NCBI RefSeq assembly: GCF_019890725.1
Contig: NZ_JAINZZ010000026.1
Span: forward strand, 1 to 64,000
Source of the DNA: Actinacidiphila acidipaludis
Lineage (GTDB): Bacteria; Actinomycetota; Actinomycetes; Streptomycetales; Streptomycetaceae
Length of the DNA: 64,000 nucleotides
Direction of reading: 5' to 3'
The notes under the pieces are model-generated. The model was not told the origin of the DNA and made no database searches. It saw only the letters and a list, made by a program, of their open reading frames with translations. Position 1 is the stretch's first letter. The number at the start of each line of letters is the position of its first letter. The translations under genes were made by a program, and so were the position numbers. Positions 15,717-30,931 of this stretch are shown here, in pieces.

Positions 15717-16898
15717 TCAGTGGTGGTGCCCGTGACCGCCGGCCGCGGCGGTCCCGTCCTCCGCGCCCTCCGGCGCGCCGCCCATCATGCGCAGCATGTC
15801 CCGGCCGCCGGTGGCGAGGAAGCGGACGACCAGGACGGCGGCGAGCAGCAGGAAGACGATGTTGAGCACGGTCGTGTAGTCCCATGTCACCCCGGACTCG
15901 GGCACCTTGGCGTCGGCCTGGTCGGGGATCAGCCCGAGGCCGCCGAAGAGCACTTCCACCACGTAGCCGGCGACCACCATCGCGGCGTAGAACGTGCCGA
16001 GCAGGAACAGGGCGGTCCGGGCGCCGTAGTACTTCCGGTAGATGTTCAGGATCGGCAGGATGATCAGGTCGGCGAAGATGAAGGCGACCACGCCGCCGAA
16101 GCTGATGCCGCCCTTCCACAGGACGACGGCCAGCGGCACGTTGCCGACCGAGCAGACGAACGAGGCGATCGCCACCAGCGGGCCGACCAGCGGCCCCCAG
16201 ATCTTGGCGGCGACGGGGTGCCCGGTGAAGAAGAAGTGCCGCCAGAAGGAGTCCGGCACCCAGGCCGCGATCGCGCCGGCGATGAACAGACCCACCACGA
16301 GGTCCCGCAGGATCGCCGCCCACTCCATCACGAAGACGTGGGACACCGCGGTGAAGCCCTCGCGCGAGCGCGGGCGGCGGAAGAAGGAGCCTTCGCCCCG
16401 GACGGACATGTCCATCGCCGCGTGGCCCTCCATCGAGCCGGCGATCCCCCGGTCCGCCTGCTCGCGCGCCTGCCGCAGCAGCCGCTCCCGCAACAGGAGG
16501 CGGAACAGCACGGCGATCAGCACGATCATCACGGGACCGCCGACGAACTCGGCCACCGTGAACTGCCAGCCCATCAGCAGCGCCAGGATGACGCCGAGCT
16601 CGACGACCAGGTTGGTGGAGGCGATCTCGAAGGCCATCGCGGCGGTGAAGTCGGCGCCCTTGCGGAACAGCGAGCGGGCCAGCGCGACCGCGGCGTAGGA
16701 GCAGGACGATGAGGCGATGCCCAGCCCGGACGCGACCGCCAGCGTCCGCGGCCGGTCGTCACCGAGCGCCCGCACCACCGCCGATCGGTGCACCACGGCC
16801 TGGACGACCGCGGACAGCGTGAACCCGAGGATCAGCGCCCAGGTGATCTCCCAGGTCATCGATCCGGTGATGGACAGCGCGTGCAGGATGGCGTGCAT
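15717..16898 (-). CDS. YraQ/ArsP-type permease with His-rich tail
   Basis: The 393-residue protein has about eight to ten membrane helices and the family signatures GLGIASSSCSYAAVALARSL (about residue 58) and SVGNVPLAVVLWKGGISFGG (about 255), the two Ser/Cys-containing re-entrant segments of the YraQ (DUF318) permease family. Relatives include ArsP organo-arsenical exporters. The cytosolic loop near residues 165-190 contains HAAMDMS, and the C-terminus is HGHHH, suggestive of metal contact. A CsoR-type copper operator lies 41 bases upstream of the start, so copper-responsive expression is likely. Substrate is not proven. Confidence 0.85.
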   Translation of the reverse strand: MHAILHALSITGSMTWEITWALILGFTLSAVVQAVVHRSAVVRALGDDRPRTLAVASGLGIASSSCSYAAVALARSLFRKGADFTAAMAFEIASTNLVVELGVILALLMGWQFTVAEFVGGPVMIVLIAVLFRLLLRERLLRQAREQADRGIAGSMEGHAAMDMSVRGEGSFFRRPRSREGFTAVSHVFVMEWAAILRDLVVGLFIAGAIAAWVPDSFWRHFFFTGHPVAAKIWGPLVGPLVAIASFVCSVGNVPLAVVLWKGGISFGGVVAFIFADLIILPILNIYRKYYGARTALFLLGTFYAAMVVAGYVVEVLFGGLGLIPDQADAKVPESGVTWDYTTVLNIVFLLLAAVLVVRFLATGGRDMLRMMGGAPEGAEDGTAAAGGHGHHH

Positions 16899-16938
16899 GT
16901 CGTCCCCTTGCCCAGTACGGCGGCACGAACACGACCTT

Positions 16939-16955
16939 ATACCCCTAGGGGGTAT
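16939..16955. promoter_or_regulatory. CsoR-type copper operator
   Basis: The 17-base palindrome ATACCCCTAGGGGGTAT matches the known actinobacterial CsoR operator form (ATACCCC-N-GGGGTAT), which normally precedes copZ/copA genes. It lies 41 bases upstream of the YraQ permease start codon, in promoter position. No csoR gene is in the window. Confidence 0.8.
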
Positions 16956-17054
16956 GGACGGCTACCCTGTCCCAGGACGGCGAGAGGAAGCCCGGCCGGT
17001 AGGAGCGGCCAGGACCCGGAGCCGGGGGCGTCCCAGCGGGGACCGGACCACGCC

Positions 17055-17092
17055 CGCGGGCCCCGGTACCGACGGGGGTACCGGGGCCCGCG
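17055..17092. terminator. Terminator after hypE
   Basis: A perfect 16-bp GC-rich stem (arms 17055-17070 and 17077-17092) with a 6-base loop lies 37 bases beyond the hypE stop. It marks the 3' end of the hydrogenase/hyp operon. Confidence 0.85.
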
Positions 17093-17128
17093 CGACGGGG
17101 TGACGCCGCGGAACCGCGCGGCCGGCGG

Positions 17129-18316
17129 TCAGCAGATGCGGGGCAGTTGCTCCCCCAGCGGCAGGTCGACCACCCGCGTGCCGCCCAGCGCGGTACGCGC
17201 CACCACCATGCCCGGATGGTCGGCGACGCACTCGCCGACGATCGCGGCCCCCGACCCCAGCGGGTGCGCGCGCATCGCGGCCAGCACCGCGTCGGCGTCC
17301 TCCCGGGGCACGAAGGCCACCAGCTTGCCCTCGTTGGCCACGTACATCGGGTCGAGGCCCAGGATGGCGCAGGCGTTGGCCACTTCGGGCGGCACCGGCA
17401 GGCGGTTCTCCTGGAGGACCACGCCGACCGAGGCCGCCTTGGCGATCTCGTTCAGCGCCGCCGCCATACCGCCGCGGGTCGGGTCGCGCAGCACGTGCAC
17501 GTCCTTGGTGACGTCCAGCATCGTCCGCACGAGCCCGCCGAGCGCGGCGCAGTCGCTCTGGATCTCGACACCGAACTCCAGCCCCTCGCGGACGCTGAGG
17601 ATGGCGACGCCGTGCTGCCCGATCGGGCCGCTGACGATCACCACGTCACCGGGGACCGCCCGCTCCGGCCGGATGTCCACACCGTCGGGGATCAGCCCGA
17701 TGCCCGCGGTGTTGATGTAGATGCCGTCGCCGTGGCCGGTCTCGACGACCTTGGTGTCGCCGGTCGCCACCTCGACCCCCGCCGTGCGGGCGGCGTCGCC
17801 CAGCGCGTGCGCGACCCGGGCCACCGTGGCGACGGAGACGCCCTCCTCCAGGATGAAGCCGCAGGACAGGTACGCCGCCCGGGCGCCGCTCATCGCGAGG
17901 TCGTTGACCGTGCCGTTGACCGCCAGGTCCCCGATGCTGCCGCCGGGGAAGAACAGCGGCCGCACCACGAACGAGTCGGTGGAGAACGCCAGCCTGGCGC
18001 CGCCGAGTTCGAGGTGCGCGGAGTCGCCGAGGGCGGACAGCGTCCGCCCGCCGAAGGCCGGGGCGAAGATGTGCTCGACGAGTTCGGCGCTCAGCGCGCC
18101 GCCGCCGCCGTGGCCCATGACGATGCGCGGCAGGTCCCGCAGCGGCGCCGGGCAGGTCCAGCCGGAGAAGTCCGGCGCGGGAGCGGCCGTGTCGGCCGGT
18201 GCGGCCGCCGGCCGGGACGCGGCCGCACCGGCCGGCGGCCGCACCGGTTCGCTCGTCTGCGCGGGCACGGGTCCGGCGGGGGCCCCGGTGCGCGGCAGGC
18301 CGGTGATGTCAGCCAA
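17129..18316 (-). CDS. hypE: Hydrogenase maturation carbamoyl dehydratase HypE
   Basis: HypE converts a thiocarbamate on its C-terminal Cys to thiocyanate, giving the CN ligands of the [NiFe] site. The protein ends with the invariant PRIC tail, so the active Cys is present. The PurM-like ATP-binding region carries [20 protein letters not shown] (about residue 65), [33 protein letters not shown] and [16 protein letters not shown]. The 395-residue length exceeds the usual 340 or so because of an Ala/Pro-rich N-terminal extension of about 50 residues. The TTG start overlaps hypD by 8 bases and has GGAGGCG upstream. Confidence 0.95.
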
Positions 18317-19433
18317 CGGGGCTCGCCTCCACGGGGGCCGGGGTGCCGCCGAGCCGGCGGTACAGGTAGTAGGCGGCGCAGGCTCCCTCGCTGGAGACCA
18401 TGGTCGCGCCGAGCGGGTTGCGCGGGGTGCAGGTGGTGCCGAAGGCCTCGCACTCGTGCGGCTTCAGCAGGCCCTGCAGGACCTCGCCGCTGCGGCACTC
18501 GGCCGGCTCGAGGGTGGTGATGCCCTCGACCGAGAACCGGTGCTCGGCGTCGAACTCCCGGTAGCGCTCGGCCAGTCGCCAGCCGCTGCGCGGAATGACG
18601 CCGATGCCGCGCCACGACCGGTCGGTGACCTCGAAGATGTCGGCGAGCATGGCCTTGGCCGCCGGGTTGCCCTCCGGGCGCACGGCCCGGGCGTAGGCGT
18701 TGTCCACCGTGTGCTCACCGCGTTCGAGTTGGGTGACCGCGCGGCGCACGCCCTCGAGGATGTCCAGCGGCTCGAAACCGGTGACGACGATCGGGACCCT
18801 GAACCGGTCGGTGAGTTCGGGGTACTCCTCGGTGCCCATGACGCTGCACACGTGGCCGGCGGCGAGGAACGCGTCCACCCGGCAGTCCGGGGACCCCATG
18901 ATCGCCTCGATGGCCGGGGGGACGCGCACATGGGAGACCAGCAGGCTGAAGTTGCGGATTCCCAGGCGCTTGGCCTGATGGACCGTCATGGCGTTCGGCG
19001 GCGCGGTGGTCTCGAAACCGATGCCGAAGAAGACCACTTCGGACTGCGGGTTCTCCTGGGCGATGCGCAGGGCGTCGAGCGGCGAGTACACCACGCGCAC
19101 GTCGCCGCCCTCGCTGCGGACCTGGAACAGGTCGCGCCCGGTGCCGGGCACCCGCAGCATGTCCCCGAACGAGCAGAAGATGACGCCGGGTCGCGACGCG
19201 ATCTCCAGTGCCTTGTCGATGACTTCGAGCGGGGTGACGCAGACCGGGCAGCCGGGGCCGTGGATGAGCTCGATCTGATCGGGCAGCAACTGGTCGATGC
19301 CGTGGCGGATGATGGAGTGCGTCTGCCCTCCGCACACCTCCATCAGGGCCCACGGCCGGGTGACCGTGGCGTGGATCTGGTCGAGCAGCCCGCGGGCGAG
19401 CGCCGGATCCTGGAACTCCTCGATGTACTTCAC
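18309..19433 (-). CDS. hypD: Hydrogenase maturation factor HypD
   Basis: HypD is the [4Fe-4S] scaffold that, with HypC, assembles the Fe(CN)2CO unit. Family motifs are all visible in 374 residues: [20 protein letters not shown] (about residue 37), [12 protein letters not shown] (about 58), [14 protein letters not shown], and the Cys-rich C-terminus with [16 protein letters not shown] and [12 protein letters not shown]. The GTG start at 19433 overlaps the hypC stop as GTGA, indicating translational coupling. Confidence 0.97.
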
Positions 19434-19771
19434 CGTCGGGCCTCCTTCGCGGTGCGCGGCTGGGCGGGCCCCCGCCCCTCGTCGTCCGGGGCAGGCGCGG
19501 CGGCCGCGCCCGCGGCCTGCTCCCAGGGGTCACCGAACTCCTCCTCCAGGAGTCCGAGGTTCTGGAACAGCGCCAGGCTCTGCAGCGCCGACTCCTCGTC
19601 GAGCCGCTGCAGCGCGAAGCCGACGTGCACGATGGTGTACTCGCCGACCTTGAGGTCCGGCAGGTACTCCAGGCACACGTCCTTCACCACTCCGCCGAAG
19701 TCGACGGTCGCCATACGCGTACCGTCGCGTTCCTCGATCTCCATGACCTTGCCGGGCACCGCCAGGCACAT
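19430..19771 (-). CDS. hypC: Hydrogenase assembly chaperone HypC
   Basis: HypC is the small chaperone that carries the iron unit to the hydrogenase large subunit. The essential N-terminal Cys is present in [14 protein letters not shown], followed by [20 protein letters not shown] and [20 protein letters not shown]. The 113-residue length is longer than the usual 75-95 because of an Ala/Pro/acidic tail (about residues 80-113) of no evident function. The ATG has GAGGAG upstream. Confidence 0.96.
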
Positions 19772-19786
19772 GCCGATCTCCTCGTT

Positions 19787-22315
19787 CTAGGCTTCCGGTT
19801 GGACGGTCGGGACAGGGGCGCGTGCCGCCACGACGAGCTGGCCCAGTGCCAGGCCGCCGTCGTTGGGCGGCACCAGGCGGTGGCGCAGCACCGTGAAGCC
19901 GTCCTCGCGCAGCCCGCCGGCGCAGGCCGAGGACAGCAGGGCGTTGGCGAACACCCCGCCGCTCAGCGCGACCTGGGCGATGCCGGTGCGCTCGCGGACG
20001 GCCGCGCACACGCGGCGCACCGCGTCGGCCACCGCCGCGTGGAACGCGACGGCGATCCGCCCCCGGTCGGTGCCCGCGGCGAGGTCGGCGACGACGGCGC
20101 CCAGCACCGGGGCGGGGTCGATGAGCAGCGGTGCGGGGGTGGCCGGCGGCGAGGTCCGCCCGTCCCCGGCGGGTCCGCTCGCCTCGCCCGGTGCGAGCGC
20201 GAAGGCGTAGCCGGGGCGCTGTGGGGCGCCGGCGAAGGAGGCGGCAGCGGCCTCCAGTTCGACCGCGGCCTGCGCCTCGTAGCCCGCGTGGTGGCACACT
20301 CCGGCCAGCGAGGACACCGCGTCGAAGAGGCGGCCCATGCTGGATGTCGGGACGCAGTGCAGCCCTCGCTCCAACTGCCTTCTCAGGATGGGGCGTTCGG
20401 CCTCGGGGCAGGCCCGCGCGCAGGGCAGCTCCGGGTCCCAGGGCAGGCCCGCCGCGAACAGATGGGCCAGCGCCATCCGGTACGGGTGCCGGACGGCCGC
20501 GTCCCCGCCGGGCAGCGGCACGTACTGCAGGTGGGCGGCGCGCCGGTAGCCTTCGTAGTCGGCGACGAGGATCTCGCCGCCCCACACCGCGCCGTCGTCC
20601 CCGGCGCCCGTGCCGTCGAAGGCCACGCCGATGACCGGACTGCCGCCGTCCAGGCCGTTGTCGGCCATCGCCGCTGCGATGTGGGCGTGGTGGTGCTGCA
20701 CCCGGCGCACCCCGGGCCCGTGCCGGCGCTCGGCCGCCCGGCCGGAGCGGTAACCGGGGTGGCGGTCGGCCGCCACGACCTGCGGGGTGACGCCGGTGAT
20801 CTCCTCCAACTGCCGTTCGGCGTGGTCGAAGGCGCCCAGCGTCGCCAGGTCGTCCATGTCGCCGACGTGCGCCGACAGCCAGGCCTGGCGGCCTTCGCCG
20901 AGGCAGAAGACGTTCTTCAGGTCGCCGCCCGCCGCGAGCGCGGGCACCACGGGCACGGGAAGCGGCACCGGGAACGGCGTGTAGCCGCGGGACCGGCGGA
21001 CCGGCAGTTCCTCGCCGTCGATCACCCGCACGACCGAGTCGTCGCAGGGCACGTGGATCGGCCGGTCGTGGGTGAGCCAGGCGTCGACGAGCGGGGCGAG
21101 CCGCTCCAGCGCCTCGTCGTCGCGTGTGACGATGGGCTCGCCGCCGAGGTTGCCGCTGGTCATCACCAGCAGGCGCGGCGCGGGCGGGTCGCCGGGCAGC
21201 CCGAGCAGGAGATGGTGCAGGGGCGTGTAGGGCAGCATCACGCCGAGGTCCGCACTGCCCGGGGCGACCGACGCGGCCAGCACACCCGCGCCCGCGGTCC
21301 CGGGCCGGCGGCGCAGCAGCACGATCGGCCGGCGGATGCCGCTGAGCAGGTTCCGCTCGGCGGCGCCGAGGCGCACCAGCGGTTCGACGTCGGCCAGGTC
21401 CGCGGCCATGACCGCGAACGGCTTGTCGCCTCGGGCCTTGCGCCGCCGCAGGGTCCTGACGGCGTTCTCGTCGGACGCGTCGCACGCCAGGTGGTAGCCG
21501 CCGAGGCCTTTGACGGCCAGGACGGCGCCCTCGGCGAGCAGCCGGCGGGCGCGGGCGACCGGGTCGCCGCCGCGGTCCTCGACGGGCGCCGCGCCGCCGG
21601 ACCGGCTGCCGGGCAGCACCAGCCGCAGCCGCGGCCCGCAGTCGTGGCAGGCGACCGGCTGGGCGTGGAAGCGCCGGTCGGCGGGGTCGGTGTACTCCCG
21701 CTCGCAGCGCGGGCACAGCGGGAACGCGGCCATGGTGGTGTGGGCGCGGTCGTACGGCAGCGCGGTGACGATGGTGAAGCGCGGCCCGCAGTGCGTGCAG
21801 GTGATGAACGGGTGGCGGTAGCGGCGGTCCGCGGGGTCGCGCAGTTCGGCCAGGCACGCCTCGCAGGTCGCGGTGTCGGGCGGAACGAGGGTCCGGCGCG
21901 GGCCGCCCTGACGGGACGGCACGATCCGGAAGCCGCTCTCGCCCAGCGGCGGCACGGCCTCCCGGGTGACGGACTGGACGACCGCGAGCGGCGGCGCCTC
22001 GGCGCCGGTCCGCTCGCAGAACGCGGCGGTCGCCTCCGGCGTGCCCTCGACCTCGGCGACCACGCCCTCGCCGGTGTTGGTGACCTGCCCGGCCAGACCG
22101 AGCTCCCGGGCGAGCGCGTACACGAACGGCCGGAAGCCGACGCCCTGGACGACACCGCGCACGGTCACCCGCACCCGCTCGGTCCGGGCCGCGCGCGGTT
22201 CCGGAGACGCCGGCGGGGCCGCGGCGACAGTGGCCACGCCGGCCGCCGGCTCGGTCGCCGGCGCGGGCGGGGAGGGCTGCGCGGCTGCGGAGTCCGCGGT
22301 CATCGGTGTGCGCAC
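19787..22315 (-). CDS. hypF: Carbamoyltransferase HypF
   Basis: HypF makes carbamoyl-AMP from carbamoyl phosphate and transfers the group to HypE. The 842-residue product has the full order: acylphosphatase-like domain (VTVRGVVQGVGFRPFVYALA, about residues 48-70), two Cys4 zinc fingers (CEACLAEL, CTHCGPRF, CPRCEREY, CHDCGPRL, about 150-225), a YrdC-like domain, and a Kae1-like domain with HHHAHIAAAMADNG (about 545) and ALSGGVFANALL near the end. The start is GTG at 22315 or ATG at 22303; neither has a strong ribosome site, consistent with coupling to hypB, whose stop is at 22318. Confidence 0.96.
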   Translation of the reverse strand: MRTPMTADSAAAQPSPPAPATEPAAGVATVAAAPPASPEPRAARTERVRVTVRGVVQGVGFRPFVYALARELGLAGQVTNTGEGVVAEVEGTPEATAAFCERTGAEAPPLAVVQSVTREAVPPLGESGFRIVPSRQGGPRRTLVPPDTATCEACLAELRDPADRRYRHPFITCTHCGPRFTIVTALPYDRAHTTMAAFPLCPRCEREYTDPADRRFHAQPVACHDCGPRLRLVLPGSRSGGAAPVEDRGGDPVARARRLLAEGAVLAVKGLGGYHLACDASDENAVRTLRRRKARGDKPFAVMAADLADVEPLVRLGAAERNLLSGIRRPIVLLRRRPGTAGAGVLAASVAPGSADLGVMLPYTPLHHLLLGLPGDPPAPRLLVMTSGNLGGEPIVTRDDEALERLAPLVDAWLTHDRPIHVPCDDSVVRVIDGEELPVRRSRGYTPFPVPLPVPVVPALAAGGDLKNVFCLGEGRQAWLSAHVGDMDDLATLGAFDHAERQLEEITGVTPQVVAADRHPGYRSGRAAERRHGPGVRRVQHHHAHIAAAMADNGLDGGSPVIGVAFDGTGAGDDGAVWGGEILVADYEGYRRAAHLQYVPLPGGDAAVRHPYRMALAHLFAAGLPWDPELPCARACPEAERPILRRQLERGLHCVPTSSMGRLFDAVSSLAGVCHHAGYEAQAAVELEAAAASFAGAPQRPGYAFALAPGEASGPAGDGRTSPPATPAPLLIDPAPVLGAVVADLAAGTDRGRIAVAFHAAVADAVRRVCAAVRERTGIAQVALSGGVFANALLSSACAGGLREDGFTVLRHRLVPPNDGGLALGQLVVAARAPVPTVQPEA

Positions 22316-22317
22316 GG

Positions 22318-23115
22318 TCAGTTGACGGCGGCGGCGGAGCCGGGGTGCGCGTGGGTGTGGGTGTGCGGGTGGCCGTGGCCCAGGCCGAAGGCGTGCGCGT
22401 GGGCGTGGCCGTCCTCGACCAGCGGGATGCGCGTGGCCATGACCGGCCGGTGCGCGGCGGCGCCGTCCGCGACCGCCAGGGCCCGGTCGAGCAGCAGCCC
22501 GACGCCCTCGCCGCGGCGCGCGGACGTGAAGACCACCTCCGCACCGGGGTTGACCTGCCGGACGTTCCCCAGGAACGCCTCACGGTCGAACTCGACGGCG
22601 TCGGCGATGTCGTTCTTGGTCACCACCACGAGCTGGGCGAGCCCGAACGCGGTGGGGTACTTCAGCGGCTTGTCCTCGCCCTCGGTGACGGAGGCCAGGA
22701 CCACCCGCAGCGACTCGCCGAGGTCGTAGGACGCCGGGCACACCAGGTTGCCGACGTTCTCCACGAACAGCAGCCGCACGTCGTGGCCGGGCCAGCCGTC
22801 CAGGTGCCGGGCGAGCATGTCGGTCTCCAGGTGGCACAGCCCGTCGGTGAGCACCTGCCGCACGGGCACGCCCGAACGGGCCAGCCGCCGGGCGTCGTTC
22901 TCGGTGGCGAGGTCGGCGGTCAGCGCGGCGACGGGGACGCCGCGGTCGCGCGCCAGGCCCAACTCGGCCTCCAGCAGGGCGGTCTTGCCGCTGCCGGGGC
23001 TCGACATCAGGTTGACCAGCGTGGTGCCGCGGGCGGCGAGGGCGTCCCGCAGTTCCTTCGCTCCCTCGTCGTTCTTGGCGAGCACCGCCGTCTGCAGGTC
23101 CGTGGCACGGCACAT
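22318..23115 (-). CDS. hypB: Hydrogenase nickel-incorporation GTPase HypB, His-rich at the C-terminus
   Basis: HypB is the GTPase that helps insert nickel into the large subunit. Its P-loop is in SSPGSGKTALLEAELGLARD (about residue 38), with VENVGNLVCP as the metal-site/switch region and VVVTKNDIADAV as the base-recognition motif. In most homologues a His-rich nickel-storage segment is N-terminal. Here the N-terminus is short (MCRATDLQTAV) and a His-rich run is at the extreme C-terminus (HAHAHAFGLGHGHPHTHTHA, about residues 240-260). The gene follows hypA by 6 bases. Confidence 0.96.
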   Translation of the reverse strand: MCRATDLQTAVLAKNDEGAKELRDALAARGTTLVNLMSSPGSGKTALLEAELGLARDRGVPVAALTADLATENDARRLARSGVPVRQVLTDGLCHLETDMLARHLDGWPGHDVRLLFVENVGNLVCPASYDLGESLRVVLASVTEGEDKPLKYPTAFGLAQLVVVTKNDIADAVEFDREAFLGNVRQVNPGAEVVFTSARRGEGVGLLLDRALAVADGAAAHRPVMATRIPLVEDGHAHAHAFGLGHGHPHTHTHAHPGSAAAVN

Positions 23116-23121
23116 CGGTCG

Positions 23122-23499
23122 TCACACCTCCTGACGGGCCGCGGCGGACGGGGCCTGGGCCCAGCGCACCTCGGCGATCTCCAGTTCCCTGCCGGACACC
23201 AGGCCGCCGGCGGCGCCCCCGCAGCACGGGCAGCACAGCTGCGGGGGCAGTCCGGTGTCCCAGTCCGACCCGCACGGGGCGCAGTGCGCGCGTCCCGGCA
23301 CCCGCCGGGTCACGAGCCGGGCCCCCGCGAGAACCGTGTTCTCGCAGGCGAGCTCGAAACAGAACCGCAGCGCCTCCGGCACCACACCGGCCAGTTCCCC
23401 GACGCGCAGCGCCACGGACTCGACGGCGGTGTGGCCGTGGGAGCGGGCGGCGTCCTCGACCTGGCCGACGACGGCCAGCGCGATGGACATCTCGTGCAT
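23122..23499 (-). CDS. hypA: Hydrogenase nickel metallochaperone HypA
   Basis: HypA binds nickel through its N-terminal MHEMSIA motif and zinc through two Cys pairs. All are visible in this 125-residue product: MHEMSIALAVVGQVEDAA, CAPCGSDWDTG and CCPCCGG. The ATG at 23499, giving the invariant MHE start, has AGGGAG at good spacing; longer in-frame starts are spurious. A GC-rich hairpin lies upstream between this gene and the microprotein gene. Confidence 0.95.
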   Translation of the reverse strand: MHEMSIALAVVGQVEDAARSHGHTAVESVALRVGELAGVVPEALRFCFELACENTVLAGARLVTRRVPGRAHCAPCGSDWDTGLPPQLCCPCCGGAAGGLVSGRELEIAEVRWAQAPSAAARQEV

Positions 23500-23552
23500 G
23501 GTCACTCCCTGACACGGCCGCCGGAGGGTGTCCCGCGGCCGAGTCCAGTACA

Positions 23553-23600
23553 GGGGGCGGCGGCCCGGTGGCCGGCCCGCCACGCCGCGGGGCCGCCCCC
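23553..23600. terminator. Hairpin between hydrogenase structural genes and hyp genes
   Basis: A 9-bp GC stem (23553-23561 with 23592-23600), with further pairing possible inside the loop, lies in the 140-bp gap between the 32-aa microprotein gene and hypA. It may act as a partial terminator that lowers hyp expression or separates two transcription units. Confidence 0.5.
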
Positions 23601-23639
23601 GCCGTCGCCCGTTCGGCGGCAGCGGTGCGGCCCCGTGGG

Positions 23640-23738
23640 TCACATCGAGCGCATCCGCAGGTAGCGCTTCACGTCGGGCAGGTTCGTCGCCAGGACGGCG
23701 GCGAGTCCGCCGAGGACGGCACCGAACACGTACTTCAC
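23640..23738 (-). CDS. 32-residue DUF6893-like microprotein in the hydrogenase operon
   Basis: This 32-codon gene starts with GTG at 23738. Its product begins VKYVFGAVLGGLAAVLATNL and ends PDVKRYLRMRSM. It has a very strong ribosome site (GAGGAGGTGA) that overlaps the end of the protease gene, whose stop is only 5 bases before the start. The layout is a single hydrophobic helix followed by a basic tail. As I recall, this matches the DUF6893 family of tiny actinobacterial proteins ending RYLxxRSM. Inference: a membrane-bound microprotein produced with the hydrogenase, perhaps an anchor or assembly aid. Confidence 0.8.
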   Translation of the reverse strand: MKYVFGAVLGGLAAVLATNLPDVKRYLRMRSM

Positions 23739-23743
23739 CGAGA

Positions 23744-24322
23744 TCACCTCCTCGCCTGGTCCGCGCCGGCCGGGGCCCGGCCGTCCCCGCTGCCGGCGGG
23801 GGCGCCGAGCAGGTCGAGGACCGCTTCCACGGCCCGGTCGACCGACGCCTCGACGACGGGGCTGAGCCCGATGCCCTCCTCCAGCACGGCCGGCTCGCAG
23901 CCGACGACCACCACCCGGCGGGGCCGGGTGCCGCCGGTCCCGGCGCTGAGGGTGTCCAGCAGCGCCAGCACGGCGTCCGGCGTCATGCGGTGGCCGTCGA
24001 TGAGCACGTCGCCGCCGGCGTGGGCGGCCTCGGCCCCGTCGATCCGGTAGACCGTGCCGGGCACGCCGCCGCGGGCGGTGGCGTCCAGCAGCACGACGGT
24101 GTCGTACCCGTCGAGGAGCTGGTAGGCCAGGTGCACGCCGCGCACGCCGATGTCGGCGGTCTCGACCCCGGGCGGCAGCGGGCGGCGGGCCAGCCGCTGC
24201 ACGGCCTCCACGCCGAAGCCGTCGTCGCCGACGAAGATGTTGCCCAGGCCGGCGACGAGCACCCGGCCGGTGCCGTCCGCGGGCGGACGCCGTCCGGCGG
24301 CGTCCGTGCTGCCGCCGTTCAC
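23744..24322 (-). CDS. Hydrogenase maturation protease (HupD/HyaD family)
   Basis: This 192-residue endopeptidase removes the C-terminal tail of the hydrogenase large subunit after nickel insertion. The family motif GLGNIFVGDDGFGVEAV is near residue 25, with the metal-binding Asp/Glu, and DIGVRGVHLAYQLLDGYDTV follows. DGHRMTPDAVLALLD supplies the conserved His region near residue 110. The C-terminus is Gly/Ala-rich. The GTG start overlaps the stop of the upstream gene as GTGA. The large subunit encoded nearby has a tail for it to cleave. Confidence 0.93.
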   Translation of the reverse strand: MNGGSTDAAGRRPPADGTGRVLVAGLGNIFVGDDGFGVEAVQRLARRPLPPGVETADIGVRGVHLAYQLLDGYDTVVLLDATARGGVPGTVYRIDGAEAAHAGGDVLIDGHRMTPDAVLALLDTLSAGTGGTRPRRVVVVGCEPAVLEEGIGLSPVVEASVDRAVEAVLDLLGAPAGSGDGRAPAGADQARR

Positions 24323-25803
24323 GCGCCGTCCTCCACGGGTGTCAGCTCGTCGGGCTGGTAGTACAGGAACCTGCCCTGGAGGCGGCGCAGTTCGGCCCCT
24401 GGGTCGCCGTCGACGGTGACCGCCACGTGCACGCCGCCGTCGACGTCGTGCAGCACCGCCTCCACCAGCGCGGTGCGGCCGTGCACGAAGATGTCCTGCG
24501 CGTCGGTGCGGCGCTTGCCGGGGCGCAGCCGGACGCGGCTGCCGGCGCCGACGGACACGCCGTCGACGAGGACGCGGTCGCGTTCGGGGTCGACGCTGCG
24601 GTCGGCCGCGGGGTCCCACCAGGGGGTGTCGGGCCGCAGCAGTTGCGGCAGGCCGGTGTCCTCGCCCGGCGTGCTGAGGACCGGCGGGCCGGTGACCTCG
24701 CGCAGCGAGCGGACGGCGCCGTGCAGGCGTTCCAGGACCTCGGGCGGCATCGAGTCGGCCAGGTCGATCACGGCTCCGGCGCGCTCGTCGGTGCCGCGGG
24801 CCTCCCGCTTCTCCTGGTCGGTGAGGGCGGCCGTGCGCAGGGCGAGGATCTCGTCGATCTCGGTGGCGTCGTAGAGCGCGCCCGGGCTCTCCGGCGCGAT
24901 GTGCGGGTGGTCCTCCAGCACGATGGGCAGCGAGAGCACCACGTCGTCGCCGCGGTCGGGGCCGGCCAGGACCGGCCAGGTCTGCTCGTTGCGGCACTCG
25001 GCGACGGCCGGGCGCGCCCATTCCGGCGGGTCCGTCATCGACAGGAAGGCGCCGGAGCCGAGCGCGAGCATCAGGTGGGCGGAGACCAGCGCGTGCGGCA
25101 GGGCAGCCTCGCGGTCGGCCGGGCCGCCGTCCGGCGGCCGCCAGCCGCCGGTGTTCTCGACCACGGCGGTCAGCCGCACCACCCGGTAGGGGCCGGGGAG
25201 TTCGGCCGCCGACAGGCGCAGCTCGCCCTCGACCCGTTCGCGCCGCCGCACGAGCCGGCCGACGACGGTGCCGGCGGCGTCCCGCACCTCCTCGGTGTCC
25301 TCGCCGGCGGCGCAGCTGAACGGCAGCACGAACTCCCGCCCGGCGGGCCCGTCGGCGTCCTCGCCCGGACCCACCTCGCCGTCCTCGCCGGCGCCGCCGA
25401 GCAGCCGGGCGACGTTCACGGTGACCTCGGCGGTCTCCACCACGCCCTCGTCCCAGGGGACCAGCACCCGGTCGGGCAGGTCCAGCGCATCGGCGGGCTC
25501 GAACCCGCCGCCGGGCAGGGCGCGTTCGACGGTCCGCCGCTGGGCGCGCAGGAAGCGGACCTCGGCGTGCAGCGGGGAGTCGCCCCGCGGTTCCATCAGG
25601 ACCTCGGTGCGCATGGCGCTGTGCTCGCCGTTGCGGTCGCCCCAGGCCGGCGGCACCAGCACGCCGAACTGCCAGCGCAGCCGGTTCTTGGCCGCGGACG
25701 CCCGGTAGGGGTAGAGCACATAGCCCTCGAAGAGCACGACGTCGGCCACCGCGCGGGCGGTGCCGAAACGGGGGGCCGCGGCGGGCGCGGCGACGGACGT
25801 CAC
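24319..25803 (-). CDS. Conserved hydrogenase-cluster protein of unknown function
   Basis: I do not know a characterised relative for this 494-residue product. It starts (GTG) with VTSVAAPAAAPRFGTARAVA and has an early conserved-looking stretch VVLFEGYVLYPYRASAAKNR, then LRWQFGVLVPP. The middle is mixed alpha/beta with acidic linkers. The C-terminal part (RVRLRPGKRRTDAQDIFVHG, then LRRLQGRFLYYQPDEL) is distinctive. There is no signal peptide or membrane helix. It overlaps both neighbours by GTGA-type junctions and so is expressed with the hydrogenase. Such proteins accompany actinobacterial group 1h hydrogenases and are presumed accessory factors. Confidence 0.85.
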   Translation of the reverse strand: MTSVAAPAAAPRFGTARAVADVVLFEGYVLYPYRASAAKNRLRWQFGVLVPPAWGDRNGEHSAMRTEVLMEPRGDSPLHAEVRFLRAQRRTVERALPGGGFEPADALDLPDRVLVPWDEGVVETAEVTVNVARLLGGAGEDGEVGPGEDADGPAGREFVLPFSCAAGEDTEEVRDAAGTVVGRLVRRRERVEGELRLSAAELPGPYRVVRLTAVVENTGGWRPPDGGPADREAALPHALVSAHLMLALGSGAFLSMTDPPEWARPAVAECRNEQTWPVLAGPDRGDDVVLSLPIVLEDHPHIAPESPGALYDATEIDEILALRTAALTDQEKREARGTDERAGAVIDLADSMPPEVLERLHGAVRSLREVTGPPVLSTPGEDTGLPQLLRPDTPWWDPAADRSVDPERDRVLVDGVSVGAGSRVRLRPGKRRTDAQDIFVHGRTALVEAVLHDVDGGVHVAVTVDGDPGAELRRLQGRFLYYQPDELTPVEDGA

Positions 25804-26489
25804 GGGGCCGCCACCTCCGCCGCGGGGACGGTGGCCGCGCCGGAGGCGCTGTGCGGCGGCGCGTCCTCCGCCGCCCGCAGCAGGACGTCCACGGTCTCCT
25901 GCCAGCTCGGCAGGGCGCGCCGGGAGCGGAAGGCCCGCAGGGACTCCATCGCGTCGCGCGGCAGGCGGATCCAGCCGCAGCCGGGGAAGTGCTGGTCCAT
26001 CATCTCCCGCCACACGGTGACCGGCAGGCGTACCGGCGCCTCCTTGTCCCAGGGGACGGGTTCCACCTGGAAGCCGCCGGGGCCGCGGAACGCGATCCCG
26101 GAGAACAGCATCAGCAGCGGCGCCTCGCCGTCCTCCAGGGCCTCGAAGTACTTGGTGGCCGCGATGTCCATGTCGTAGGTGCAGGGCACCGGCACGTCCA
26201 CCTCCGTCTGGCCGGTGAAGCCCGGGCAGACCAGGGAGACATGGGCGAACTGCAGGGGGTTCAGCGTGCGGCCCCACCGTGACCGTTCACCGAACAGGTC
26301 GCCCAGCGCCTCGGCCTCGGTGTCGTCGTAGCGGCGCAGGGCCGGTTCGATGCGGATCTGGCAGCGCAGGGCCATGGCGTGCACGGGCTGGTCACCGGGC
26401 GCGGTGATGCGCAGCCGGAAGACCAGGGTGGGGCCGGCGGCGTAGGCGTCGGCCCGCACCCCCGTGCACGCGAAGTCGAAGCTAGTCAA
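25800..26489 (-). CDS. DUF6084 family protein (hydrogenase accessory)
   Basis: The 229-residue product looks like the DUF6084 family known from actinobacterial hydrogenase clusters. Notable stretches are VRADAYAAGPTLVFRLRI, HAMALRCQIRIEPALRRYDD, WGRTLNPLQFAHVSLVCPGF and CTYDMDIAATKYFEAL. The latter two suggest a beta-sandwich-like protein. The start is TTG at 26489 with GGAGGG 7 bases upstream, inside the end of the preceding gene. Role unknown; the tight overlap with both neighbours ties it to hydrogenase expression. Confidence 0.85.
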   Translation of the reverse strand: MTSFDFACTGVRADAYAAGPTLVFRLRITAPGDQPVHAMALRCQIRIEPALRRYDDTEAEALGDLFGERSRWGRTLNPLQFAHVSLVCPGFTGQTEVDVPVPCTYDMDIAATKYFEALEDGEAPLLMLFSGIAFRGPGGFQVEPVPWDKEAPVRLPVTVWREMMDQHFPGCGWIRLPRDAMESLRAFRSRRALPSWQETVDVLLRAAEDAPPHSASGAATVPAAEVAAP

Positions 26490-27138
26490 GGACGTTCCCT
26501 CCCTCGCCGGCCATCGCCGGTACCACCACCGCTCTGCGGTGCACGTCGTCGAAGAACGCGGCGACCTCGGTGCGCACGCGGGTGCCGCCGTCGAAGCCCT
26601 GCCAGTGCAGCCGGAGCCGGCCGACGAGCTGGTAGGCCACGTCGACCGGAACCAGGTGGCAGGTGCCGCGGGCGTCCTGGCGCCGCACCAGCAGCGCCTC
26701 CACGTCGTCCTCCATCGCCCGGGCGAGCGCCGAGGCGCCGAACGCGGCCTCCCAGGCGGCGGGTTCGATCTCGTTCTCGGTCGCGCCGGCCGGGCTCGGG
26801 TAGAGGGCCACCACCCGTCCGAGCCGGGAGTTGCGGAAGAAGAACGCCATGTCCACCGGGATCCCCAGGGCGTGCCACGCGACGGGGTCGGTCCGCCACG
26901 CCGGGTCCGCGAGGTAGCGGTCCGGGATGGTGCGGAAGCGGCCGCCGCCCGCGCCGGGGCGGTCGAACAGTATGGCGCAGGCCAGGCACGCGCAGGCCAG
27001 CGACCGCCGCTCGACGTCGACCAGGTGCCGGTGCTCGGGGCCGAGCCCGGTCGAGCACAGCTCGCACCGCTCGTCCGCGGTGGCCGACCGGGGGACGAGG
27101 TATCTGCGCAGGCCGGGCGCGGCGCCGAGCGCGCTCAC
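26482..27138 (-). CDS. DUF5947 family protein (hydrogenase accessory)
   Basis: This 218-residue product matches the DUF5947 family. An N-terminal Cys pair (ADERCELCSTGL, about residue 25) and CACLACAILFDRPGAGGGRF (about 48) could bind a metal. VDMAFFFRNSRLGRVVALYP and VRTEVAAFFDDVHRRAVVVP are further conserved-looking blocks. GTG start, overlapping the NifU-like stop as GTGA. Consistently placed in group 1h clusters, it is presumed to aid assembly or electron transfer; nothing proves this here. Confidence 0.85.
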   Translation of the reverse strand: MSALGAAPGLRRYLVPRSATADERCELCSTGLGPEHRHLVDVERRSLACACLACAILFDRPGAGGGRFRTIPDRYLADPAWRTDPVAWHALGIPVDMAFFFRNSRLGRVVALYPSPAGATENEIEPAAWEAAFGASALARAMEDDVEALLVRRQDARGTCHLVPVDVAYQLVGRLRLHWQGFDGGTRVRTEVAAFFDDVHRRAVVVPAMAGEGGNVLD

Positions 27139-27689
27139 CGGGTGTCCGCGGGACGCGCCCCCGGCGGGCGGGTGCCGATCTGCAGCAGGACGGGTTCCCG
27201 GTCGGCCGCCTCCGGCTCCTCGAACGTGACGGAGGTGATCTCGGGGGCGAAGCAGGCGAGGGCGTCCTCGATCCGTTCGCGGGCCGGGCCGGAGCCGCAG
27301 CCGCAGCCGCTCCCGGCCTCCTGCCGCAGCCGCAGCAGACCGGCGTCGGCGTCGAGCGCGGTCACCTCCGTGGCGGAGGCCTCGGCCGCTCGCAGCGCCC
27401 GCTGGACGCGCCGGGCGGTGTCGTCGGGGTGCAGGTCGTGCAGCACCAGCAGCCCGGCGGACATCTCGTCGTCCAGCAGGGCTTCGAGCGGTCCGCCGCT
27501 GCGGCCGGACAGGAGCGCGACCATCCGGGCCAGGCCGCTGCCGTAGAACTCCATCAACGCGCCGACCAGGTCCTCCGCGGTGCGGGCCACCGCCGGGTCG
27601 CCGTGGGCGGCGAGGTGCTCCAGGAGCTCCTCGACGCGGCGGGCGGTGGCCTCCGCGGGCCTGGCCTTCCTGGTGTCCGGTGCCGCCAT
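27135..27689 (-). CDS. NifU-like domain protein (hydrogenase accessory)
   Basis: A 184-residue protein with a helical N-terminal half (RRVEELLEHLAAHGDPAVAR, DLVGALMEFYGSGLARMVAL) and a C-terminal part resembling the NifU C-terminal Fe-S scaffold (RIEDALACFAPEITSVTFEE). The classical CxxC of NifU is not evident; instead there is SGCGCGSG near residue 135. Relatives in group 1h clusters are thought to help Fe-S or electron flow. The ATG overlaps the stop of the large subunit gene by one base (TGATG), indicating coupling. Confidence 0.82.
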   Translation of the reverse strand: MAAPDTRKARPAEATARRVEELLEHLAAHGDPAVARTAEDLVGALMEFYGSGLARMVALLSGRSGGPLEALLDDEMSAGLLVLHDLHPDDTARRVQRALRAAEASATEVTALDADAGLLRLRQEAGSGCGCGSGPARERIEDALACFAPEITSVTFEEPEAADREPVLLQIGTRPPGARPADTR

Positions 27690-29470
27690 CAGGCCAGGCC
27701 GCTCAGGCCGGTCGGCACGTGCATCTTCTCCACGGTCTTGCCGCCGCCCACGTACATGTGCACACCGCACGGCAGGCACGGGTCAAAACTGCGCACCGCC
27801 CGCATGATGTCGATGCCCTTGAAGTTCTCCGGAGAGTTCTCCTCGAAGATGGGGGTGTTCTGCACCGCGTCCTCGTAGGGGCCGGGCGTGCCGTAGCTGT
27901 CGCGGACGCTGGCGTTCCACGGGGTGGGCGGGTACGGGTGGTAGTTGGCGATCTTGCCGTCCCGGATGACCATGTGGTGCGAGAGCACGCCGCGCACCGC
28001 CTCGGTGAAGCCGCAGCCGATGCTCTCGTCCGGCACCTCGAACTTCTCCCAGGTCTGGGTGCGTCCGGCGCGCACCTCGGCGAGCGCCTGCTCGGTGAAG
28101 TGCAGGGCGCAGGCGGCCGCGTAGGCCTGGAAGTACGTGCGGGCCCGGTTGCGCTCCAGGGCGTTGCTCCACTGCGGGATCTTCCACTCGAAGGTGGTCT
28201 CCGGCTTGGTGAGCGACCGCGGCAGGTTGATGACGACGCTGTGGCCGGTGGCCTTGACGTAGCCGAAGTCGACCAGGCCGGACAGCGCGGTCGACCACAG
28301 ACGGGCGATCGGGCCGCCACCGGTGTCCAGCGCGAGGTGGTCCTTGCCGTCGAACCAGCGGGGGGACATGACCCAGCTGTACTTGTCGTCGAAGTCCCGC
28401 TTCTGCGGCGCCGGGATGGTGTGCTGGTTCCACGGGTGCCGGGGGTCCACCGGGTTGCCGAGCGGGTCGCGGGTGACGAACTGCTCCTGCCCCTCCCAGT
28501 CCTCGTAGTACGAGCTGCCGAGCAGGATGCGGATGCCGAGGTTGATCTGCGTCAGGTCGTTGGTGACCAGCTTCCCGTCCACGATGACGCCCGGGGTGAC
28601 GAACATCTTCCGTCCCCAGTCGGTCATGTTGCGGTAGGTGAAGTCGCAGTGCTCGGGGTCGTTGAGCGCGCCCCAGCAGCCCAGCAGCACCCGCCGGCGC
28701 CCGACCTCCTCGTAGCCGGGCAGGGCCTGGTAGAAGAAGTCGAAGAGGTCGTCGTGCAGCGGCACCACGCGCTTCATGAACTCCACGTAGCGCATGAGCC
28801 GGGTCAGGTAGTCGGTGAGCAGCTGGACCGAGGCGACCGTGCCGACGCCGCCCGCGTACAGCGTGGACGGGTGCACATGGCGCCCCTCCATCAGGCAGAA
28901 CATCTCCCGCGTGTAGCGGCTCACCTGGAGCGCCTCGCGGTAGAACTCGCCCTCCAGCGGGTTGAGCGAGCGCATGATGTCGGCGATCGTCTTGTAGCCG
29001 TGCTCGGCGGCGTGCGGCGCCTCGGTGCGCTCGGCCTGCTCGAGGACGCCGGGGTTGGTCTCGCGGACCATCTTCTCGCAGTAGTCGACCCCGACCAGGT
29101 TCTCCTGGAAGATGTTGTGGTCGAACATGTACTCTGCGGCCTCGCCGAGGTTGATCACCCACTCGCCGAGGTGCGGCGGCTTCACGCCGTACGCCATGTT
29201 CTGCGCGTACACCGAACAGGTGGCGTGGTTGTCGCCGCAGATGCCGCAGATGCGGCTGGTGATGAAGTGCGCGTCGCGCGGGTCCTTGCCGCGCATGAAG
29301 ACGCTGTAGCCGCGGAAGACCGACGAGGTGCTGTAGCACTCGGCGACCCGCTTCTGCTTGAAGTCGATCTTCGTGTGGATGCCGAGGCTGCCCACGATCC
29401 GGGTGATCGGGTCCCAGGACATCTCCATCAGGCCGCTGCCGTCTGCCGCGGCCGTGGGCGTGGGTGCCAT
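27689..29470 (-). CDS. hhyL: [NiFe]-hydrogenase large subunit, group 1h (actinobacterial)
   Basis: This 593-residue catalytic subunit holds the NiFe(CN)2CO site that splits H2. The two Cys pairs are visible: SRICGICGDNHATCSV (about residues 72-87) and FDPCLPCGVHMYVGGG (about 561-576). A 20-odd residue tail after the final His, ending TGLSGLA, is the peptide removed by the maturation protease. The motif wording and the accessory gene set place it in group 1h, the oxygen-tolerant, high-affinity type that oxidises atmospheric H2 during starvation and sporulation. The small subunit gene ends 56 bases upstream. Confidence 0.96.
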   Translation of the reverse strand: MAPTPTAAADGSGLMEMSWDPITRIVGSLGIHTKIDFKQKRVAECYSTSSVFRGYSVFMRGKDPRDAHFITSRICGICGDNHATCSVYAQNMAYGVKPPHLGEWVINLGEAAEYMFDHNIFQENLVGVDYCEKMVRETNPGVLEQAERTEAPHAAEHGYKTIADIMRSLNPLEGEFYREALQVSRYTREMFCLMEGRHVHPSTLYAGGVGTVASVQLLTDYLTRLMRYVEFMKRVVPLHDDLFDFFYQALPGYEEVGRRRVLLGCWGALNDPEHCDFTYRNMTDWGRKMFVTPGVIVDGKLVTNDLTQINLGIRILLGSSYYEDWEGQEQFVTRDPLGNPVDPRHPWNQHTIPAPQKRDFDDKYSWVMSPRWFDGKDHLALDTGGGPIARLWSTALSGLVDFGYVKATGHSVVINLPRSLTKPETTFEWKIPQWSNALERNRARTYFQAYAAACALHFTEQALAEVRAGRTQTWEKFEVPDESIGCGFTEAVRGVLSHHMVIRDGKIANYHPYPPTPWNASVRDSYGTPGPYEDAVQNTPIFEENSPENFKGIDIMRAVRSFDPCLPCGVHMYVGGGKTVEKMHVPTGLSGLA

Positions 29471-29526
29471 CGTCAGTGCCGTGCCCTTCGTCGTGTGGGG
29501 TGGTGGGGGGTGTCAGCGGGGCTGGG

Positions 29527-30618
29527 TCACCAGGGCTTGCTGTAACCGGTGGTCAGTTCGCGGCCGGTGTGGCGCCACTTGGGCTCCTGGTCGACCGTCT
29601 TCGCGGTGATGCCGCGCAGCCTGCGGATCACCGTTCCGTACAGGCCGCTGGCGGTGCTGGAGATCCGGGCACCGGGCGGCTCGTCCATGAACGGCATGAA
29701 CATGTCGGGGAAGCCGGGCATGGTGCAGGCGATGCAGATGCCGCCGACGTTGGGGCAGCCGCCGATGCCGTCCATCCAGCCGCGCTTGGGCACATTGCAC
29801 TTCACCACCGGTCCCCAGCAGCCCAGCTTCACCAGGCACTTGGGCGAGTCGTAGGTGGTGGCGAAGTCGCCCTGCTCGTAGTAGCCGGCCCGGTCGCAGC
29901 CCTCGTGGACGGTGGCGCCGAACAGCCAGGTCGGCCGCAGCTTGTCGTCCAGCGGGATCATCGGGGCGGACCCGGCGGCCTGGTACAGCAGGTACGTCAG
30001 GGTCTCGGCGAAGTTGTCCGGCTGGATCGGGCAGCCCGGCACGCAGACGATCGGGATGCCCGCCGAGGACTTCCAGTCCCAGCCGAGGTAGTCGGGCACG
30101 CCCATGGCGCCGGTGGGGTTGCCCTCCATGGCGTGGATGCCGCCGTAGGTGGCGCAGGTGCCGATGGCGACGACGGCCAGGGCCTTGGGGGCGAGCCGGT
30201 CGATCCACTCGCTGGTGGTGATCGGCTGGCCGGTCTCCGGGTTGTCGCCGAAGCCGCACCAGTAGCCCTCGGCCTTGATCGCCTCGTTCGGGATCGAGCC
30301 CTCGACGACCAGCACGAACGGGTCGATCTCGCCGCGCTCGGCCTTGAAGAACCACTCGATGAAGGCGTCGGCGCCCTGCACCGGCCCGCACTCGAAGTCG
30401 ATCAGCGGCCAGTGGACTTGGATCTTGGGCAGGCCGGGCAGGCCCTGCAGCGCGATCTCCTCGATGCTGGGCAGTGTCGCCGCGGTCAGCGAGACGGAGT
30501 CCCCGTCGCAGCTGAGCCCGGCGTTGATCCAGAGGATGTGGATCGGGTCCTGGTCGTCGGCCGCGCTACCCGGGCCACCGACGGCGCCGGACTGCGTGGC
30601 CGAGTTCGCATCCGCCAT
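29527..30618 (-). CDS. hhyS: [NiFe]-hydrogenase small subunit, group 1h, with Asp-ligated proximal cluster
   Basis: The 363-residue Fe-S subunit relays electrons from the active site. The first proximal-cluster motif reads NAGLSCDGDSVSLTAA (about residue 35). Where standard hydrogenases have CxGC, this has CDGD, so an Asp replaces one Cys; this substitution was seen in the crystal structure of the Ralstonia actinobacterial-type enzyme. Other cluster motifs are GTCATYGG, VPGCPIQPDN, HEGCDRAGYYEQGDF, CLVKLGCWGPVVKCNV and GGCPNVGGICIACTMPGFPD. There is no Tat signal peptide and no C-terminal anchor helix, unlike exported group 1 enzymes. AGGAGGC precedes the ATG. Confidence 0.96.
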   Translation of the reverse strand: MADANSATQSGAVGGPGSAADDQDPIHILWINAGLSCDGDSVSLTAATLPSIEEIALQGLPGLPKIQVHWPLIDFECGPVQGADAFIEWFFKAERGEIDPFVLVVEGSIPNEAIKAEGYWCGFGDNPETGQPITTSEWIDRLAPKALAVVAIGTCATYGGIHAMEGNPTGAMGVPDYLGWDWKSSAGIPIVCVPGCPIQPDNFAETLTYLLYQAAGSAPMIPLDDKLRPTWLFGATVHEGCDRAGYYEQGDFATTYDSPKCLVKLGCWGPVVKCNVPKRGWMDGIGGCPNVGGICIACTMPGFPDMFMPFMDEPPGARISSTASGLYGTVIRRLRGITAKTVDQEPKWRHTGRELTTGYSKPW

Positions 30619-30931
30619 CGATGCCTCCTGGGTGCAGTGATCGACATACGCCAGAAAACGGCGTCCGGTTCCTGCGTACCGTGCGCCGCGCCGTCACACG
30701 ACGTGGAAGGCGACCATCGGGGTGAGCGGGACAGGGCCGACCGGGGAGCCGCGCGCACGGCGCGTGAGGCCGACCGGAGGGCACCGCGGATCCGGCCGCG
30801 CGGCACGGGGTCCGGCCGGGCGGCACGGGGGATTCCGGGCCGCCGGCCCCGGGCTCCCGGGCCGGCGGTCCGGACGGTACGTGTACGGCGTTCGGCGCTC
30901 CGGCGCTCCGGCGCTTCCGGTCCCTCGGCGG
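30619..30931. promoter_or_regulatory. Intergenic region with hydrogenase promoter
   Basis: This 313-bp gap must hold the promoter of the hydrogenase operon (minus strand). About 55 bases upstream of the small-subunit start the minus strand reads GGAAC, then 17 bases, then CGTAT. This resembles an ECF sigma promoter and would explain stress or starvation expression, but it is a weak call. The hypX terminator occupies 30840-30868. No coding sequence is credible in the rest. Confidence 0.4.
30840..30868. terminator. Terminator after hypX
   Basis: A very GC-rich hairpin (arms 30840-30853 and 30856-30868, one bulged C) lies 64 bases past the hypX stop on the minus strand, upstream of the hydrogenase promoter region. 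Confidence 0.7.

Follow-up and report, generated by a model that had tools for sequence, protein, structure and literature searches.

A 32-codon DUF6893 gene at the end of the structural operon of group 1h [NiFe]-hydrogenases encodes a candidate membrane subunit

Group 1h [NiFe]-hydrogenases let soil bacteria live on the traces of hydrogen in air and are regarded as a main agent of the uptake of atmospheric H2 by soils (the soil sink). The way in which these enzymes attach to the membrane and pass their electrons to the respiratory chain is stated as unresolved in the accessible parts of two papers (PMC6883350, PMC7174314). This question is raised by a group 1h (Hhy) locus in a 64,000-nucleotide (nt) stretch of Actinacidiphila acidipaludis DNA (contig NZ_JAINZZ010000026.1, positions 1 to 64,000; the whole stretch is called the window herein), in which a very small gene directly follows hhyD, the gene of the hydrogenase maturation protease. 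In the Actinomycetota examined, this microprotein goes with nearly every 1h operon and is tied to the structural operon. The gene's product is probably a membrane subunit with a single span, dedicated to the group 1h hydrogenase complex; it would insert into the membrane, bind the cytoplasmic enzyme and so tether it. The gene and its ribosome-binding site are as follows.

23640..23738, minus strand: DUF6893 microprotein gene, 32 amino acids, GTG start; hydrophobic helix plus tail NLPDVKRYLRMRSM
23747..23752, minus strand: Shine-Dalgarno sequence AGGAGG, 8 nt 5' of the GTG and overlapping the end of hhyD

On the minus strand, positions 23738 to 23640 translate to VKYVFGAVLGGLAAVLATNLPDVKRYLRMRSM followed by a stop, which gives 32 residues with the GTG read as M. 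The stop codon of hhyD (TGA) occupies 23746-23744, leaving 5 bases (23743-23739) between the two genes. A preliminary description had reported a 32-codon gene with a good ribosome site 5 bases past the maturation protease gene and had likened its product to DUF6893; both points were borne out, the second by a Pfam match to PF21833 (DUF6893) of 54.6 bits (E 1.1e-14; cut-off 24.6) over positions 2-32 of 32. The microprotein is thus a full-length member of a family for which the Pfam entry gives no function, the link to hydrogenases being added here. Its C-terminus, RYLRMRSM, agrees with the helix plus RY...M-COOH tail pattern of PF21833. An NCBIfam scan of the microprotein returned no match, and a search by sequence among solved structures found none matching it.

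Related loci held 127 distinct copies, 126 of which share the same kind of C-terminus, RY-x(4-5)-M-stop. The ratio of nonsynonymous to synonymous differences (pN/pS) was 0.58 in the true frame versus 1.06 and 1.48 in the two shifted frames. Because so many distinct copies share a C-terminus and pN/pS is lower in frame, the open reading frame (ORF) does not owe its existence to chance; the gene is real and selected. An Rfam scan of window positions 15000-35000 gave nothing at gathering scores, promoter and terminator scans of positions 22000-26000 gave nothing informative, and a search found no case in which the microprotein is fused in frame to another operon gene.

Conservation was unevenly spread over the protein. 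Among 125 sequences (the column counts omit L127, whose sequence continues beyond the motif), R-8, Y-7 and M-1 were invariant; 115 had P-12, and 124 had D or E at -11. The invariance of R, Y and M was partly favoured by the search, which used a profile and, for Methylocystis, a pattern that demanded R, K or Q followed by Y, with M at the end. Over 812 pairs of at least 70% identity, pN/pS was 0.31 in the last 12 codons versus 0.82 in the 13 codons before them. The hydrophobic half need only stay hydrophobic, and the basic tail of some 12 residues hardly varies, right up to its final residue. A drifting helix with a held tail is what would be expected of a membrane span plus a docking peptide. 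The sole G at -11 and the sole H at -4 come from G174 and G143, two genomes without the structural genes; these are two cases only, in the direction that would be expected if the enzyme constrains the tail. An AlphaFold2 monomer model predicted one continuous helix over residues 2-31 with a predicted local distance difference test score (pLDDT) of 85. Across 123 family members, hydropathy over 17 residues had a median of 2.12 and a lowest value of 1.26, and the tail was more basic than the N-terminus in 110.

Co-occurrence with the hydrogenase large subunit, HhyL, was followed in the window's genus (g1, 34 genomes) and in a second genus centred on G038 (g4, 148 genomes). PF21833 was found in 24 and HhyL in 26 of the 34 g1 genomes, all 24 lying within the 26, so that 24/26 genomes with HhyL carry the microprotein versus 0/8 without it. 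A divergent 1h subclade accounts for the two HhyL genomes that lack a Pfam match: G304 has a copy at 22 bits and G311 a variant. The g4 genomes gave PF21833 in 88, HhyL in 87 and both in 86, and 2/61 of those without HhyL have PF21833. The single g4 genome with HhyL alone (G400) has a divergent copy at 23 bits inside the operon; of the two with DUF6893 alone, G143 has lost hhyL and most of hhyS (the small subunit gene), and the contig of G375 stops just before hhyL. Placement was equally regular: 25/26 match rows in g1 and 84/90 in g4 were on the strand of hhyL, at 3.7-4.7 kilobases (kb) and 3.4-3.9 kb downstream of it, respectively. The other six g4 rows comprise G143, G375, one sub-cut-off match in G456, and G367, G418 and G461, in which hhyL is on another contig and operon genes were confirmed beside the microprotein copy. 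G353 has two HhyL genes and two microproteins. Fisher values for these comparisons take no account of common descent and serve only as a guide. The synteny with group 1h hydrogenases that the preliminary description had expected therefore held, in 86/87 (g4) and 24/26 (g1) HhyL genomes with same-strand downstream placement, and the scattering of DUF6893 genes without a hydrogenase link, which it had named as the contrary outcome, did not occur in either genus.

The microprotein gene sits in a minus-strand cluster with the order hypX, hhyS, hhyL, NifU-like, DUF5947, DUF6084, unk491, hhyD, microprotein, hypA, B, F, C, D, E. Its other members are given here from hhyS to hypE.

29527..30618, minus strand: hhyS, small subunit (NCBIfam scan), lacking a twin-arginine translocation (Tat) motif or membrane-helix-like stretch
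27689..29470, minus strand: hhyL, group 1h [NiFe]-hydrogenase large subunit (NCBIfam scan; structure match 5AA5)
27135..27779, minus strand: NifU-like protein in the HhyE position, start uncertain; no Pfam match; tblastn matches directly after hhyL in relatives
26482..27138, minus strand: DUF5947 protein (PF19372)
25800..26489, minus strand: DUF6084 protein (PF19562)
24319..25794, minus strand: unk491, conserved 1h-operon protein; no Pfam or NCBIfam model; start codon uncertain
23744..24322, minus strand: hhyD, HycI/HyaD-type maturation endopeptidase (PF01750, 57.3 bits; TIGR00072, 120.9 bits)
23122..23499, minus strand: hypA, first gene 3' of the microprotein, after a 140-nt spacer
22318..23115, minus strand: hypB (PF02492)
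19787..22315, minus strand: hypF (TIGR00143)
19430..19771, minus strand: hypC (PF01455)
18309..19433, minus strand: hypD (TIGR00075)
17129..18316, minus strand: hypE (AIRS domains PF00586/PF02769 plus its place in the operon)

HhyL is of the group 1h type, since the sole solved structure that it matches at E <= 1e-60 is 5AA5 (HofG), which we take to be the enzyme of Cupriavidus necator. By hydropathy, neither HhyS nor HhyL has a membrane-helix-like stretch (best 19-residue values 1.45 and 0.97), and HhyS has no Tat motif; the earlier claim that group 1h subunits lack an anchor helix is thus supported for both. The product at the place of the NifU-like gene in C. necator is assigned to the NifU family in the gene table.

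Several genes of the surrounding region were also looked at. unk491 is conserved in nearly all 1h operons examined, and its AlphaFold2 model (pLDDT 78.5) resembles in part PetP of cytochrome b6f (Foldseek 7r0w_V: probability 1.00, TM 0.77 by target, E 0.023). The PetP-like part may be a C-terminal SH3-like domain; because SH3-like folds are common, this likeness is only a lead. Upstream of hypX lies a 436-residue threonyl-tRNA synthetase-like gene (32768-34078, minus strand) that lacks the N-terminal part (model positions 165-563 matched), and 3' of hypE lies a permease gene (15717-16898, minus strand) whose product is distant kin of the SO_0444/SaoE efflux families, far under their cut-offs.

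To which operon does the gene belong? Of 132 matches (not deduplicated), 94 show the order hhyD-DUF6893-hypA and 15 the order unk491-DUF6893-hhyD; smaller classes have the gene ahead of hypF or hypC. The gap to the preceding gene had a median of 3 nt and was at most 20 nt in 101/121, while that to the following gene (its start estimated from the alignment) had a median of 144 nt and was at most 20 nt in 6/117. A short gap before and a long gap after mark the microprotein as the tail gene of the structural operon. The preliminary description had placed it inside the hydrogenase operon; it is indeed an operon gene, and its position is refined to the end of the structural operon, outside the hyp operon. 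This fits the layout in Streptomyces avermitilis, for which the accessible text of PMC4767420 gives one single-gene and two multi-gene operons of hydrogenase genes, the border itself not being in that text.

Position was also followed in a monophyletic subclade of eight HhyL sequences (support 0.97). At five of the eight loci (L111, L112, L129, L231 and L254), the microprotein or a variant (as in PGLVREIRIWRM) follows the DUF5947 gene. At L111 and L129, hhyD lies on the opposite strand; L231 has it at a distance of about 7 kb, and the stretches of L112 and L254 do not include it. Two of the remaining loci, L128 and L130, keep the hhyD-DUF6893 order, and L113 has no microprotein. When one RIWRM variant was compared with DUF6893 by profile, the match was not significant (5.9% probability). 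The copy of G400 (L254) has the canonical ending PALRRYLKLSRM at the same place as the variants and so links variant and family; the variants are probably orthologues, judged by position and by this bridging copy and not by sequence score. A place after the DUF5947 gene makes a structural protein as partner more likely than a role in maturation alone.

The association was followed further across the phylum in 296 genomes, with HhyL counted at at least 64% identity over at least 250 residues. HhyL was present in 27 of them, 18 of which carry PF21833. Among the other nine, G123 and G162 have the variant, the G028 and G100 contigs stop short of where the microprotein would be, G164 has a truncated hhyL followed by hypE and no PF21833, G172 lacks hhyD, the microprotein and part of unk491, and no microprotein candidate was found at the 1h loci of G295, G097 and G120. 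The HhyL of G172 (L135) is 90% identical to that of the window, and the G172 operon may be inactive or served by another protease. In G120, from the basal 1h lineage without DUF6893, a 47-residue hydrophobic ORF ending MRPKILLPLAVLTVVGFVVDQWIHGRFL lies directly after hypB (L116, 15209-15352); this ORF does not fit the DUF6893 tail motif and is possibly a replacement for the microprotein.

The 269 other genomes, counted with G104, G200 and G125 and their short HhyL fragments, gave PF21833 in seven: the relics G143 and G174; G169, G194 and G238, whose copies lie at least partly beside operon genes on contigs without hhyL; and G198 and G203. In the last two, as in G315:C13, the match covers only part of the family profile, the frame is either long or very short, and chance is the probable cause. 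Family f18 (23 genomes, mostly also in the phylum sample) had PF21833 in six, namely G115, G084, G145 and G095 (HhyL 74-75%), the relic G174, and G194; G164, with its truncated hhyL, was its only genome with HhyL above 70% and no PF21833 match. A hydrogenase-operon gene lay within 1.5 kb in 49 of 55 PF21833 match loci, the window's own included. Of the six exceptions, L029 is 3.6 kb from hhyS, L031 is beside a response regulator (from translations) like that next to the extra copy of G089, L002 is unlinked on a 4.3-kb contig, and L024, L026 and L056 are doubtful matches.

Wide loci, which include the best 80 of one contig scan (Streptomyces, Kitasatospora, Actinacidiphila, Streptacidiphilus, Streptantibioticus, Embleya and 'Actinobacteria bacterium'), provided 132 distinct full hhyL loci. 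hhyD was present in 123 of these, accompanied by DUF6893 in 116, by a variant in three and by neither in four; one of the four (L107) is at a contig end with its copy on L108, which leaves L113, L114 and L116. The nine loci without hhyD were set aside: seven short or contig-end loci (L115, L137, L146, L153, L171, L187 and L212), L135 of G172, and the variant locus L112. In the decayed 1h operons L120 (G143) and L124 (G174), hhyL is gone and hyp genes and the microprotein are kept. A second, divergent DUF6893 with a PDFQRY[QK]QLRDM ending occurs in G089 and G169, at L142 (4045-4143) and L123 (2152-2250).

Outside Actinomycetota, the plasmids of two Pseudomonadota species were examined, and both carry the gene. 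The 1h operon of C. necator pHG1 has a 33-codon DUF6893-like gene, MKGFLKYLVLPALVVALLANIKDIRRYIRIRSM, between the protease gene and hypF (L227, 17669-17767), and that of a Methylocystis parvus plasmid has a copy, MGLFEIILGLLILALIAFNFRDIVRYIKITMM, between the protease gene and hypC. The microprotein gene was unlisted in 5/5 plasmid regions with a gene table (the PLSDB table being incomplete by its own description). For other [NiFe] hydrogenases (39-46% identity to HhyL), 15 loci gave no DUF6893 (best profile score 9.5 bits) and no match to DUF5947, DUF6084 or unk491, three of these loci (L233, L244, L246) being a partial test only as they end less than 3 kb downstream of the large subunit gene; an hhyD-like gene was present in 11/15.

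What might such a protein do? If it acts as a membrane subunit, its helix would span the membrane with the N-terminus outside and the tail in the cytoplasm. The tail would dock on cytoplasmic HhySL, or on the neighbouring HhyE, DUF5947, DUF6084 or unk491 proteins, and the docked tail would hold the hydrogenase at the inner membrane face, from where electrons from H2 could reach menaquinone. Such a tether would explain the membrane association of 1h enzymes whose own subunits have no anchor. The accessible part of PMC7174314 describes a verrucomicrobial 1h enzyme without transmembrane helix or signal peptide that is nevertheless (weakly) membrane-associated, for which a 'currently unknown' partner is suggested; its Michaelis constant (Km) is given as 140 nM on membranes versus 300 nM isolated, and two other membrane proteins are encoded in that operon. 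For Hhy of Mycobacterium smegmatis, the accessible part of PMC6883350 reports that no cytochrome b anchor was detected and that HhyE is required.

Known hydrogenases and small subunits offer points of comparison. HucM ties the high-affinity group 2a hydrogenase Huc of M. smegmatis to the membrane and to menaquinone, as set out in the accessible part of PMC10017518. The microprotein would share this job, the membrane tie of a high-affinity [NiFe] hydrogenase with access to menaquinone, and we propose for it the name HhyM by analogy. The two were compared by description and not by sequence: HucM is a long alpha-helical scaffold (about 189 residues, a coiled-coil tetramer), whereas the microprotein is one 32-residue helix. 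Group 1d hydrogenases are anchored by a cytochrome b (HyaC/HoxZ) and by an anchor helix of the small subunit (HyaA/HoxK), and membrane attachment with electron hand-over to quinone would be the common role. Those anchors are multi-span haem proteins or the C-terminal helix of an exported small subunit, unlike the single helix of the microprotein, and HhyS differs from the group 1d small subunits in having neither such a helix-like stretch nor a Tat motif. CydX and KdpF are single-span microprotein subunits of respiratory and transport complexes; they resemble the DUF6893 protein in size (about 30-40 residues), in having one helix, and in having their gene last in the operon of the enzyme that they serve, but the conserved part of the DUF6893 protein is its tail and not its helix. 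The Pfam scan gave no match to small-subunit families of the CydX/KdpF type and shows DUF6893 only.

Several observations weigh against a membrane subunit. Chief among them, the 1h enzyme of C. necator is reported as cytoplasmic and low-affinity in the accessible part of PMC7174314, although the gene is present there. At least four 1h loci have no microprotein (G172, which also lacks hhyD, G295, G097 and G120). The best 19-residue hydropathy of the window copy, 1.55, is only moderate and does not by itself single it out, because stretches inside larger proteins reach as high (unk491, 1.61, a strand in its model; hypF, 1.59; hypX, 1.91); the charge bias across the helix is likewise modest (net +1.4 versus +3.1). 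Some second copies lie near regulators (gene names read from the translations): that of G089 is upstream of hhyS, close to a sensor kinase and a response regulator, and that of G169 is beside a like regulator, one G169 copy being on a contig that has no hydrogenase genes. G193 has a second copy (L126, 9856-9972) between hypF, on the opposite strand, and hypC, D, E, with no structural genes matched there, a place that fits a role in assembly too, and at L111 hypA is close behind the variant.

The last two cases bear on the idea that the microprotein is a membrane-bound assembly factor that brings HhyD or the nickel carrier HypA to the newly made large subunit without being a component of the finished enzyme. 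Its usual place directly after hhyD and before hypA, and the joint absence of hhyD and the microprotein from G172, agree with this idea as well. The spacer of about 144 nt before the next gene, mostly hypA, tells against it, as do the five subclade loci in which the microprotein follows DUF5947 while hhyD is elsewhere, and the other [NiFe] classes, which lack the microprotein although most of their loci have an hhyD-like gene. HyaD and Hyp maturation factors are, moreover, soluble. On balance, we regard a pure assembly role as unlikely, though it deserves to be kept in view.

An element of oligomerisation or of a quinone channel, several copies of which would form a hydrophobic passage like the HucM stalk in place of a plain tether, appears less probable still. 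HucM plays such a part in Huc, the other high-affinity enzyme, according to the accessible part of PMC10017518, and the DUF6893 helices have many Ala and Gly residues, a frequent trait of packing helices; 32 residues are nonetheless too short for a HucM-like stalk, and the helix was modelled as a monomer only. A role as a regulatory or leader peptide, or a merely incidental position next to the operon, in either case without a partner protein in the hydrogenase, is very improbable: short ORFs 5' of hypA could in principle act in cis, yet the place in the operon shifts while the protein tail is kept, the microprotein tracks HhyL across two genera, and the tail is under purifying selection. This last explanation is already largely refuted.

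The tethering subunit remains our preferred interpretation, and the microprotein is a strong candidate for the unknown part that holds the 1h enzyme on the membrane. The preliminary description, which had named an anchor or an assembly factor as plausible roles, is partly supported. DUF6893, PF21833, or a microprotein together with a NiFe hydrogenase were not found in the literature searched, from which all preprints and the majority of subscription papers are absent; within the reach of these searches, DUF6893 was known before as a family without function, and its tie to one enzyme is new. Gene tables tend to miss the microprotein despite its conservation with the operon. For work on 1h membrane attachment, its 32-codon gene is one small target that could be deleted, tagged and studied structurally, and it is a gene to add when a 1h hydrogenase is expressed in another host. 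More speculatively, and with considerable doubt on our part, DUF6893 may be the missing 1h membrane subunit, ancestral to the main 1h clade from Actinomycetota to Pseudomonadota, whose short invariant tail makes a soluble, lower-affinity enzyme quinone-coupled and high-affinity. If so, an enzyme isolated without the microprotein, perhaps as for C. necator, would be soluble and of low affinity from loss of this subunit.
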